Of a DNA stretch of 64,000 bases, positions 12,889 to 16,560 are shown piece by piece (within the stretch, counting starts at the first letter, position 1; each line of letters starts with the position of its first letter). The notes under the pieces were generated by a model. That model searched no databases. It was given only the letters and a program-made list of their open reading frames with translations, and had not been told where the DNA came from. The stretch is from Cyanobacteria bacterium FACHB-471. Its GTDB lineage: Bacteria; Cyanobacteriota; Cyanobacteriia; Elainellales; Elainellaceae. The stretch covers positions 62,001 through 126,000 of the forward strand of contig JACJOC010000030.1 of NCBI GenBank assembly GCA_014695345.1. Reading direction: 5' to 3'. The position numbers and the translations under genes are program-made.

Positions 12889-13797
12889 TTAACGTATATC
12901 AGGAATCTGCGCGTTGCTCGCTGAAAATAGCTGTTGCAACTGCTGAAGTGCCTGATGTTTGGGGTCATAGGTCAGATTACCTGTAGAAGAGAGAACGGTG
13001 TGGATTGGGACAACCTGTACTACGCTGTTGCTGTAGGCGATCGCCTCAAAACTTGACACCAACTCTTCACCCCAAGGTTCCTCTCTAATATTCTCATTTT
13101 GGCACTTGAGCCAGGAAATGAGTTGCGATCGCATCAATCCTGGCAAAATTCCTGACTCCAGAGGCGAGGTCCACCAGCAGCCTTGCCCCCATCCCCAAAG
13201 ATTTCCAGTGCTAGATTCGAGCCAACTTCCGTTGAAATCGACCAAAATGGCTTCCTGTGCTCCCTGCTGCTGTGCTGCCTGCCGCGCTAACCAAGGAGCA
13301 AGATAGTTACCCGTTTTGTGATGTGTGAGAGAGCGGTTCGTTTCTGGCGGAGACAGCCAAGCGATCGCTCCGTTCTTCTGCAGAAGCGCCAGATTGTCGG
13401 GTAAGGCGCGTCCGGTGATCCATTCACGCCCATCAAGAAACAGGGTAATTCGCAGCACCGGAAAAGATGAGAGCAAGATTTCTGCTCCGTAGCGGACTCG
13501 CTGCCAGTTGGGAGACTTCCAGCCAAAAGCTTGGAGGGTTGATTGGAGGCGATCGCAGTGTCCTTTCCAGCTCGTTAACGGATCATCTAGAGACTGCCGA
13601 TAAACTCGCAGCGTTGTAAAGGCAGTAGCACCATACAGCAGCCCTGGATCATCGATCGCTAATTCCACCTTGCCGCTGTGAATTAGCTTGCCATCATACC
13701 AGCAGGTTTTAGAGGAACGCGCCTCTGGCTGGTTGTGCTGGGACTGTTTAGGGAAGCTTGAGTTAGAATCATGAGAGTAATACACAAAACTTAACAA
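12889..13797 (-). CDS. pabC: Class IV aminotransferase, probable 4-amino-4-deoxychorismate lyase
   Basis: Up to 302 residues. Fold-type IV PLP enzyme: DPGLLYGATAFTTLR at the N-terminal domain junction, the PLP lysine in THHKTGNYLAP, and the glycine loop SSTGNLWGWGQG. PabC cleaves aminodeoxychorismate to p-aminobenzoate for folate; D-amino acid or branched-chain aminotransferases share the fold, so the substrate is inferred. No ATG lies near the N-terminus. The possible starts are TTG at 13797 or GTG at 13785; the conserved region begins only at WYDGKL. The TTG shares its first base with the start codon of the divergent photolyase-like gene. Confidence 0.75.
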   Translation of the reverse strand: MLSFVYYSHDSNSSFPKQSQHNQPEARSSKTCWYDGKLIHSGKVELAIDDPGLLYGATAFTTLRVYRQSLDDPLTSWKGHCDRLQSTLQAFGWKSPNWQRVRYGAEILLSSFPVLRITLFLDGREWITGRALPDNLALLQKNGAIAWLSPPETNRSLTHHKTGNYLAPWLARQAAQQQGAQEAILVDFNGSWLESSTGNLWGWGQGCWWTSPLESGILPGLMRSQLISWLKCQNENIREEPWGEELVSSFEAIAYSNSVVQVVPIHTVLSSTGNLTYDPKHQALQQLQQLFSASNAQIPDIR

Positions 13798-14612
13798 TGA
13801 AGCGGTTAAGGACAGATTTGGAGGGGAGAGAGGCGATCGCAGATTATCTGCAAGCTGAGTTCTCTTTCCTTGAGAATACGGGTGTTTTGGCTCCTCACCC
13901 GGGTGGGCGATCGGCGGGTCTAGAAAGATTAGAGCAGTTCCAGCTTGAGAAATATGGCAAGCAGCGAAACTTTTTAGACGGAGAGGTAGGACAGCTCTCT
14001 CCCTATATCAGTCGCGGCTGCCTGGAACTGGAAGAAGTACGGCAATGGGCACTGAGGCACGGCAAATCTAACTCGGTGGAAAAATTCGTCTCAGAATTAG
14101 CGTGGCGGGCATTTTTTCATCTGGTTTATGAGGAGGAGGGCGATCGTATCCTCAAGGACATGGAAAAGCCCAAGGTCTCCATGCGCCGTCACCAAACCAG
14201 GCTACCCGAAGACATTGCCAGCGGTGAAACAGGCATTCCTTCAATGGATACCTTCATCGCCATGCTGAAGGAAACGGGATATCTGCACAACCATACTCGG
14301 ATGTATCTGGCAAGCTACATCGTCCACTTTCGCCGTGTTTCCTGGCGAGCAGGTGCAGATTGGATGTATGGTCTGCTGATTGACGGTGACTTTGCCAGCA
14401 ACCATCTTTCCTGGCAGTGGGTCGCTTCCACTTTTTCTCACAAACCCTACATCTTCAACCGAGAAAATCTGGAGCGCTACGCCGGATCTGTGCTGCCTGG
14501 TGATCCGCGTAAAGGAGATCCGTTCAACTATTCCTACGAGGAACTTTCGGAACAGCTATTTGGTAGTGAATATCAGCCGGAACGGAGCCGCACTTCTGGG
14601 AGCTATCGATAA
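13797..14612 (+). CDS. Stand-alone photolyase/cryptochrome FAD-binding domain protein
   Basis: 271 residues, matching only the C-terminal, FAD-binding half of photolyases and cryptochromes (full proteins are 450-500 residues). Visible signatures in order: LSPYISRGCL near residue 68, SELAWRAFFHLVY near 102, TGIPSMDTFIAMLKETGYLHNHTRM near 145-170 (quoted in part), and DGDFASNHLSWQWV near 198. These cover the adenine, isoalloxazine and phosphate contacts. The alpha/beta antenna domain is absent from the N-terminus but is encoded by the next gene, 3 bases downstream. It could be a flavin-based light sensor or a split repair enzyme. Confidence 0.82.
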   Translation: MKRLRTDLEGREAIADYLQAEFSFLENTGVLAPHPGGRSAGLERLEQFQLEKYGKQRNFLDGEVGQLSPYISRGCLELEEVRQWALRHGKSNSVEKFVSELAWRAFFHLVYEEEGDRILKDMEKPKVSMRRHQTRLPEDIASGETGIPSMDTFIAMLKETGYLHNHTRMYLASYIVHFRRVSWRAGADWMYGLLIDGDFASNHLSWQWVASTFSHKPYIFNRENLERYAGSVLPGDPRKGDPFNYSYEELSEQLFGSEYQPERSRTSGSYR

Positions 14613-14615
14613 TCT

Positions 14616-15032
14616 ATGCCTGCTTTAATTTGGTTTAACGAAGACGGCTTGAATCCCCAGCATCAGATGGTACAAGACTACGCTGATGCCCCGAAGGTGT
14701 ATGTGTTTGATGTGAATTACTTAAAGCAGTGGGCGATCGCCAAGCATCGAGTGCAATTCATCTACGAATCGCTTCTAGAAATTCCCAACATCGAAATCTA
14801 CAAAGGAGAAACCGTAGCGACTTTGCGGCAACTCGTCACTGACCATCAAGCCAATGAAATTATCACCACTGAAACACCAAATCACCTGATCAAGTCCTGG
14901 CAGGATGAGTTGCTGAAATACACTAATCTGATTACCTATCCTGAAGTTTATCCAGCCACAGACAGCCGTTCTCCTAGACGTTTTTCTCACTACTGGCGAA
15001 AGAGCGATCGCGCCTGGTTGACCTTAACTTAA
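14616..15032 (+). CDS. Photolyase-type alpha/beta (antenna-domain-like) protein
   Basis: 138 residues. The pattern resembles the N-terminal Rossmann-like domain of photolyases: PALIWFNEDGL at the start (compare the usual VWFRRDLR), then KVYVFDVNYLKQW, RVQFIYESLLEIPN, IEIYKGETVATLRQLV and ANEIITTETPNH. The Arg-Asp-Leu-Arg motif is not kept. It is separated from the FAD-domain gene by only 3 bases and follows it, so the two together would make a photolyase with its domains in reversed order on two chains. The assignment is by fold-level resemblance, not strong identity. A hairpin at 15061-15097 ends the unit. Confidence 0.62.
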   Translation: MPALIWFNEDGLNPQHQMVQDYADAPKVYVFDVNYLKQWAIAKHRVQFIYESLLEIPNIEIYKGETVATLRQLVTDHQANEIITTETPNHLIKSWQDELLKYTNLITYPEVYPATDSRSPRRFSHYWRKSDRAWLTLT

Positions 15033-15267: not shown

Positions 15268-16560
15268 GTGATAACACAGCAGCGTCGCCGTCGCATTGAA
15301 GGTTATCGCGCTGGACAGCGCCCTCAGGATGCAAAATATCATCACACTGGGCGCTTTGAGCAGGAGCAGCTACCACCCAGGGTCGATCTCCGCAAACATA
15401 TGACCGATGTTGAAGAACAGATTGGCAATAGCTGTGTTGCCAATGCTTTCGTTGGAGCATACGAATATCTCGCCAAACGAGATTTGGGTGATTCGGGGGA
15501 TGTGAGCCGCTTGTTTGTTTACTACAACGCTAGGGTGCAGATGGGTGGCGATATCGAAGATGCTGGAACCCAGATGTACTGCGCCATTAATAGTTTGATT
15601 GAGCATGGCGCTTGTTCAGAGGAGATTTGGCCCAACGACGAGAGCTTACTCTGCGAAGAACCTAGCTCGGAAGCTTATGAACATGCAGCCTACTTCACAA
15701 TCACTGAGTCGGAGTTTATTGAAACCGACCTGGATTTGTGGCGACATACTTTGGCAGAGGGCTATCCTATCGTTTTTGCCCTCAATACCTTTGAGTCATT
15801 TGATGGTGCTACGACCAATCGGGGACGCGTGCCACTACCCAAGCAGTCAGACAATGTGCGCGAAACACATGGATGGCACGCCATGCTCTGTGTTGGCTAT
15901 TCCGATAAAGACCAAATGTTTATTATCCGTAACTCTTGGGGACCGGAATGGGGCGATCGCGGCTATTGCTATATTCCCTATCGTTACATCATTCATCAAG
16001 ACTACAATGCTCACGATTCATGGATTATCAAATCTGTCAGCGACCTAGACTTTAGTACTGAATGGGAAGACGAAGAATCGGTTTTTGCAGATGAAAATTC
16101 ATTGCTGCTCCAGGATTTTTACATTCACACTGGTGACTCAGAGGGGTTCATTGAAGACCTAGATCAGCTTTGTCAGAGCTATGTAGAGAGCGAGGAAGAC
16201 TATTACTTTGACTATGAGGAAGAGGAAGACGAAGAAGCCTACACCGTTAGCATCCTCAACTTTGACCTAACCATTGAAGAATCCGACGAATTCCTTGAAG
16301 AGCTAGATTCCCTCTGCCAAAACTACGCAATCGACGAAGACTATAACTTCACCATTGACAGCGAAAGCGAAGAAGGGGAAGGCGAGGAGGAAGACAGCGA
16401 AGAAGAATACGAGGAAGAGGACAGCGAGGAAGAAGACAGCGAAGAAGAATCTGAGGAAGAAGAGGAATACGAAGAGGAGGACAGCGAGGAAGAAGAAGAA
16501 TACGAGGAAGAGGAATACGAAGAGGAGGACAGTGAGGAAGAGGAATACGAAGAGGAGTAG
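15268..16560 (+). CDS. Papain-like (C1A) cysteine peptidase with acidic C-terminal tail
   Basis: 430 residues from a GTG at 15268, preceded by AAAGGAG. Residues about 35-255 are a C1 peptidase: oxyanion Gln51 and catalytic Cys56 in QIGNSC, histidine in THGWHAMLCVGY, and asparagine in IIRNSWGPEWGDRGY. No signal peptide or clear long propeptide is present, so it probably acts in the cytosol. Residues 280-430 are extremely acidic; two related segments (FIEDLDQLCQSY and FLEELDSLCQNY, each followed by an acidic Tyr-rich run) precede a Glu/Ser/Tyr repeat tail built from short EEEDSEEEYEEE units. The tail could bind metal or basic partners or keep the enzyme soluble or inactive; this is inference. 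Confidence 0.85.
   Translation: MITQQRRRRIEGYRAGQRPQDAKYHHTGRFEQEQLPPRVDLRKHMTDVEEQIGNSCVANAFVGAYEYLAKRDLGDSGDVSRLFVYYNARVQMGGDIEDAGTQMYCAINSLIEHGACSEEIWPNDESLLCEEPSSEAYEHAAYFTITESEFIETDLDLWRHTLAEGYPIVFALNTFESFDGATTNRGRVPLPKQSDNVRETHGWHAMLCVGYSDKDQMFIIRNSWGPEWGDRGYCYIPYRYIIHQDYNAHDSWIIKSVSDLDFSTEWEDEESVFADENSLLLQDFYIHTGDSEGFIEDLDQLCQSYVESEEDYYFDYEEEEDEEAYTVSILNFDLTIEESDEFLEELDSLCQNYAIDEDYNFTIDSESEEGEGEEEDSEEEYEEEDSEEEDSEEESEEEEEYEEEDSEEEEEYEEEEYEEEDSEEEEYEEE
16378..16558 (+). repeat. Acidic codon repeat tract (GAA/GAG-rich)
   Basis: About 180 bases of near-repeating GAGGAAGAGGACAGCGAGGA-type units that encode the Glu/Asp/Ser/Tyr tail of the cysteine peptidase. The copies are imperfect and vary in spacing, which favours replication slippage and length variation between strains. 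Confidence 0.7.

Follow-up and report, generated by a model that had tools for sequence, protein, structure and literature searches.

A split photolyase-like gene pair in reversed domain order, without iron-sulphur cysteines, in the cyanobacterium FACHB-471

Described relatives and the gene pair in the window

The closest described system is phr4/phr5 of marine Synechococcus and Cyanobium, in which a gene for a photolyase-type FAD domain comes first and an adjacent gene for an alpha/beta domain second, and which also has a fused form, phr6 (PMC9426592). In the account given there, phr4/phr5 confers protection against UV-C in both Synechococcus and E. coli, Phr7, of the NewPHL type, is closest to Phr4 and Phr6, and it was left open whether phr4/phr5 makes one protein by frameshifting, or two. 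A second relevant class, the SPLs or NewPHLs, is described as repairing cyclobutane pyrimidine dimers (CPDs) in single-stranded DNA and as having an inverted topology (PMC13274461); an SPL gene is listed in S. elongatus (PMC9178010). The reversed two-gene arrangement is thus already in print, as phr4/phr5, and little studied; what we add are unlinked two-chain copies, zero overlap with cryptochrome-DASH (DASH) in the genomes sampled and a loss of cysteines in the family of the organism studied here. Literature searches on slr1343 with photolyase and on split photolyase found no paper and nothing relevant, respectively.

The window, the whole stretch of DNA analysed, comprises 64,000 nucleotides of Cyanobacteria bacterium FACHB-471. 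On its forward strand the initial annotation had placed two open reading frames (ORFs) of 271 and 138 residues 3 bases apart, FAD domain first, and this arrangement was confirmed: an FAD-domain subunit of the Phr4/SPL/NewPHL type at 13797-14612 (ATG start, TAA at 14610-14612) is followed at 14616-15032 by an alpha/beta (antenna-type) subunit of the Phr5 type, also with an ATG start. At the junction (TAA-TCT, 14610-14615, forward strand) the spacer TCT occupies 14613-14615, and both ORFs share a frame in which the TAA is the sole stop between them, whereas PMC9426592 reports a change of frame between phr4 and phr5. Sequence identity of the FAD protein is 48% with its counterpart in Cyanobium M55B138 (L065) and 45% with the one in Synechococcus AG-679-C18 (L084). 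The 3-base gap and in-frame junction were found in all three genomes of the genus seen (G000, G001 and G002); the recurrence of the same split in two other genomes argues against a sequencing error. The dN/dS against each of the two genus mates is about 0.05 in the FAD gene and 0.09-0.11 in the alpha/beta gene, and both genes are under purifying selection.

We searched 388 genomes drawn from the window's class with an alignment of the FAD protein (A1, E <= 1e-40; compiled from the window's protein and ten relatives, towards which its hits lean) and one of the partner (A2, E <= 1e-4). The FAD protein was present in 86 genomes and the partner in 89, including all 86. In one of the three partner-only genomes (G105) there was no FAD gene within the 3 kb fetched around the hit; the other two hits were a weak one within a 508-residue frame (G109) and one at a contig edge (G334). 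The pair also occurs in other phyla, as seen in the best 80 of at least 581 named loci, which span several of them; four of these (L046 to L049) coincide with contigs of G001, G027, G032 and G029, genomes of the window's family. A pair conserved in this way, with low dN/dS, is not a chance arrangement, and the lack of conservation that the initial annotation had named as counting against it did not materialize.

A class IV aminotransferase gene (12889-13797, reverse strand) stands head to head with the FAD gene, its predicted ORF starting at the same base, perhaps with a shared control region; this pairing is conserved in G003 as well as in the genus. Directly downstream (15268-16560, forward strand) lies a gene for a 430-residue papain-family protein (Peptidase_C1) with a long, repetitive, Glu/Asp-rich C-terminal tail; of the other 89 loci searched, none had a match to it in its flanks at E <= 1e-8. 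In 19 of the best 80 of at least 581 named loci (L051, L059, L061, L063, L065, L071, L072, L076, L084, L088, L093, L097, L106, L107, L115, L116, L118, L121 and L125) the flanks hold a second photolyase-like FAD domain (E <= 1e-3), often adjoining, as a photorepair cluster. Elsewhere in G000, an orphan ORF of 205 residues (L003, contig C105, 1504-2121) matches only the C-terminal part of the photolyase FAD domain (profile 84-202) and has a tail of its own; the family search listed no N-terminal photolyase part nearby.

The first protein matched Pfam FAD_binding_7 with 92.5 bits (cut-off 27; profile 1-126 of 203), and aligned to photolyase FAD domains, among them 5kcm (Z 17.4, rmsd 3.6, 253 residues), tied with others. 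The small protein is harder to place by sequence. On its own it fell below the Pfam threshold for DNA_photolyase (E 0.17), and a single-sequence search of the PDB gave hits only at E 0.49 or worse, with no photolyase among them. DNA_photolyase was matched at E <= 0.1 by 31 of the 49 alignment members (best 6e-6; the window's own protein is not among the 31), and the 49-row profile searched against the PDB gave 16 hits at E <= 1, of which 15 are cryptochromes or photolyases (best 3e-4). The model predicted for it (pLDDT 86.9), in which five strands and helices alternate, matches the N-terminal domain of E. coli photolyase 1dnp (VIA Z 12.9, rmsd 3.9, 137 residues), other photolyases being tied. 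This model and its structural matches rule out another fold, the outcome named beforehand as refuting the initial reading. A weak hit to Poly_A_pol_cat (E 0.088) lay below its cut-off and was rejected. The usual RRDLR motif, said at the outset to be lost from this protein, is indeed missing, NEDGLN standing in its place, but this is not peculiar to the gene: the family consensus there is W.HED.L, which makes the absence a family trait.

Residues were counted in 86 of the 89 class-genome rows (the other three are fragments) and in all 81 rows formed by the window and the best 80 of at least 581 named loci. Y53, S68, R168, W183, D196, D198, N202, W206 and W208 are invariant in every row having a residue there. 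Codons 196-202 (14382-14402, forward strand) read DGDFASN, whose D...D...N pattern we take to be the flavin-binding motif. E100 and W103 (codons E100 to W103, 14094-14105, forward strand) presumably occupy the lesion-binding Glu and Trp positions of CPD photolyases: position 100 is Glu in 70 and Gln in 16 of the 86 class rows, and Glu in 72, Gln in 8 and Ala in 1 of the 81 rows of the window and best 80 of at least 581 loci, while position 103 is Trp in 86 of 86 and in 80 of 81 (Tyr in one), respectively. We assign W183 and W206 to the inner pair among the three Trp electron-relay positions; a third relay Trp, sought by eye in the window's FAD protein, was not seen. The genome's own photolyase (L001, 658-2100, G000 contig C112) reads DLRRGE at the middle relay position, where the usual photolyase sequence is, we presume, DWRRGE. 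The flavin-binding role of the D...D...N motif is given in PMC9426592, and the conserved W183 and W206 could form a Trp dyad like that reported for the D. shibae NewPHL (PMC8948257).

We consider it probable that the two genes encode the halves of one light-driven CPD repair enzyme, made as separate chains, of the Phr4/Phr5 kind, which replaces DASH and whose cluster was lost in the window's family. The 271-residue chain would bind FAD and hold the lesion, and light absorbed by reduced FAD would split the cyclobutane pyrimidine dimer; the 138-residue chain would dock on the FAD chain like the alpha/beta domain of a normal photolyase, shield the flavin and possibly carry an antenna pigment. Contact between the chains is a prediction that draws on a model of the read-through chain with both domains (pTM 0.88). 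Class I CPD photolyases are single chains with an N-terminal alpha/beta domain, unlike this pair; the genome holds a separate photolyase in that normal domain order. NewPHLs such as that of D. shibae have reportedly been treated as one chain; R. fascians has another characterised member of the SPL/NewPHL class. The window's FAD protein shares with the SPL/NewPHL class its short length without an N-terminal alpha/beta domain, its inverted topology, here as two genes and not one chain, and a CPD-type Asn at the lesion site. The Phr4-type pair fits this class as placed by its published description, with the difference that SPLs are described as being without the alpha/beta domain (PMC9649867), which in the window is a separate gene.

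Iron-sulphur cysteines and lesion type

In the relatives of the FAD protein, four Fe-S-type cysteines occur, one at the position of S149 (codon 14241-14243, forward strand) and three in a CxxC...C loop corresponding to codons 230-243 (14484-14525, forward strand), which in the window read GSVLPGDPRKGDPF and contain no Cys. All four are found in 76 of the 86 class genomes with the pair; in one of these (G069) they are spread over two pieces of the gene with a frame change. The other ten, which have none of the four, are exactly those of the window's family. Among the best 80 of at least 581 named loci, 57 have the full set, 16, mostly from Alpha- and Gammaproteobacteria, keep only the first cysteine, and 7 are without the set (L059, L108, L113 and the four loci of the window's clade, L046 to L049). 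By analogy with PhrB, and following PMC9426592, where all Phr4 and Phr6 are reported to have the four cysteines, these would bind a cluster in the relatives. The loss of this cluster in the window's family, with the enzyme kept, shares the probability given to the explanation as a whole.

The window's clade is fully supported (100/100) and sits on a long stem of 1.21 changes per column. In an unrooted tree of 66 hand-chosen rows, a supported branch (97/97) places it on one side together with betaproteobacterial rows in which the cysteines are retained, and the AU test (p 0.0065, also unrooted) rejected a single clade uniting all cyanobacterial rows. With so long a stem and no root, its place beside the betaproteobacteria is uncertain; the tree suggests that the clade did not inherit the pair together with other cyanobacteria. 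A first tree, with the genome's own photolyase as outgroup, left out G034, G069, G261, G105 and G334 (broken, partial or without the FAD gene), and its root was not used because the outgroup branch was 10 long; a second also left out L061, L079, L108, L113 and the outgroup, and the third, the 66-row tree above, additionally L080, L110, L123 and L124.

Single genomes contain FAD genes that are broken or misread, with an in-frame TAA (G154, L180), a TGA and a frame change (G034, L229), a frame change (G069, L222) or two TGA (G453); these may be sequencing errors or broken copies. In five genomes of genus g48 an apparent TAG within the FAD gene was discounted: it falls at match positions 255-260, where the match ends, and is read as the normal gene end.

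For the type of lesion, the residue at issue is N165, within codons 164-169 (HNHTRM, 14286-14303, forward strand), at the place where (6-4) photolyases have an essential His. These enzymes are reported to need the lesion-site His, PhrB H366N being without (6-4) repair (PMC4619345). The Asn is present in all 81 rows of the window and best 80 of at least 581 named loci and in all 86 class rows with a residue there, and the genome's normal-order photolyase also has Asn at the equivalent place. The CPD site is nonetheless not fixed across the family, Gln replacing E100 in 16 and Leu replacing M169 in 20 of the 86 class rows. The FAD chain resembles FeS-BCP proteins such as PhrB in its structural match to 5kcm and, in its relatives, in a similar four-Cys pattern; PhrB differs in its normal domain order, its lesion-site His and an N-terminal domain of the Pfam family DPRP, and the window protein has none of the four cysteines and N165 as its His366 equivalent.

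The authors of PMC9426592 favour (6-4) repair for Phr4/Phr5, since the cysteines are present in all their Phr4 proteins and losing phr4/phr5 had consequences after UV-C and none after UV-B. That the pair is such a reversed-domain (6-4) photolyase is, in our assessment, unlikely. Besides these data, it has in its favour that no FeS-type (6-4) photolyase (PF04244) was found at E <= 1e-30 in 23 of 86 genomes with the pair, 17 belonging to family f32. Against it, the window's FAD protein has none of the four cysteines, Asn stands in place of the essential His, which argues against the published guess, and the window's own genome already carries a separate FeS-type (6-4) photolyase with an AHHIQRL His motif and the four-Cys pattern; moreover, such enzymes are similarly frequent in genomes with the pair (63/86) and without it (230/302). 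CPD repair is favoured because of N165, the separate (6-4) enzyme, and a (6-4) proposal that rests on cysteines and UV-C data; the pair would most likely act on CPDs in single-stranded or opened DNA.

Distribution relative to cryptochrome-DASH

Replacement of DASH by a NewPHL is said to have been proposed by the discoverers of the NewPHLs. We called DASH with NCBIfam TIGR02765 (cut-off 317.05), a model against which the window's FAD protein scores 96.4 bits. DASH was present in 224 of the 388 class genomes and in none of the 86 with the pair, where an overlap of 49.6 would be expected with descent disregarded. The window's family (36 genomes) divides into 10 with the pair, 22 with DASH, 4 with neither and 0 with both; of 160 genera, again disregarding descent, the pair is found in 32, DASH in 95 and both in none, while at the level of families the pair is in 9, DASH in 28 and both in 2. 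Given this zero overlap, the pair probably replaces DASH in the cyanobacterial genomes sampled, and separate descent of the window clade's pair would make at least two separate cases of replacement. The two may do the same cellular job, single-strand CPD repair, although DASH is a single chain in normal domain order and the window's enzyme is encoded by two genes in reversed order.

Outside the class, 50 pair genomes taken from 61 loci listed also had no DASH over the cut-off, 23 of them giving weaker matches of at most 264.9 bits. In a Pseudomonadota sample DASH was rare (8/135), a rate at which 0 of 50 would occur by chance with P 0.047, and so was the FAD family (4/135); we confine the exclusion to the class.

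Of the initial annotation's "photoreceptor or repair enzyme", the second is the likelier, given the UV-C protection by the related phr4/phr5 (PMC9426592). A cryptochrome-like light receptor with the small protein as signalling subunit would accord with the blue-light flavin fold, and the missing cluster might point to an altered role; we nevertheless regard it as improbable, since the window keeps the lesion-site residues, exclusion with DASH suggests repair, and the related genes protect against UV-C.

Two separate chains

In 62 of the 86 pair genomes the genes are adjacent, FAD gene first, on the same strand; in 3 they lie 0.9 to 1.9 kb apart, and in the remaining 21 they are far apart, either separated by at least 89 kb within a contig (11 genomes) or on different contigs (10), from which it follows that two separate chains suffice. 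Among the best 80 of at least 581 named loci, 59 are split, 13 are natural fusions and 8 have no partner match in their flanks; of these 8, one ends at a contig end (L120), two have an ORF that runs on into a long C-terminal part without a match (L108 and L113), and the other five are cyanobacterial, where the partner may lie elsewhere. In Calothrix NIES-3974 (L078) a partner was not found within 4 kb. Where a start could be assigned among the split loci of this set, the genes overlap in 41 of 55 cases, by exactly four bases in 21, a length characteristic of translational coupling. In genomes of the window's family the gap ranges from 3 to 52 bases in the eight genomes assigned (3 in the genus, 5 to 52 in the five others) and the frame varies; in G014, outside these eight, the ATG follows the stop directly. 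Unlinked genes, overlaps and variable gaps and frames together indicate that separately made chains are a working and common state in this family. The initial suggestion of a photolyase split into two chains, its domain order reversed, is thereby supported, as it also is by the fold of the small protein, the co-occurrence in all 86 genomes and the fusions.

A single polypeptide, arising in the window through read-through of the TAA or in relatives through frameshifting, could be imagined from the shared frame with its one stop in the window's genus and from the existence of natural fusions. We regard it as very unlikely, in view of the family's varying gap and frame, the overlaps in 41 of 55 assigned split loci (21 by four bases, among the best 80 of at least 581) and the 21 genomes with distant genes, which rule out such fusion as a general mechanism. 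A decaying remnant of a gene split, for which one might cite the lost cysteines, the long stem of the clade and the broken copy in the incomplete genome G034, is highly improbable given the dN/dS of about 0.05 and 0.09-0.11 and the retention of both genes in all ten family genomes having either.

Phage copies were sought and discarded: the 10 records found were all under 60% identity, and none covered 80% of the query.

Because the two genes can lie far apart, they bear on the frameshift question of PMC9426592: two separate chains work in this family. If Phr4 is an SPL, as we suppose, the alpha/beta domain that SPLs are described as being without (PMC9649867) would be another gene in the sampled genomes. 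The Fe-S cluster of prokaryotic (6-4) photolyases is said to be of 'yet unknown function' (PMC12082625), and PhrB with mutated cysteines was either insoluble or failed to be expressed (PMC4619345); a natural clade without all four cysteines, its purifying selection intact, offers a direct test of the cluster's role. More tentatively, the alpha/beta protein might be a free, exchangeable light-harvesting subunit acting in trans, a regulable or swappable antenna of a single-strand photolyase, in which case the Fe-S-free clade would show that the cluster is unneeded for folding or repair. Finally, the zero overlap with DASH in 388 genomes gives the pair a testable role.
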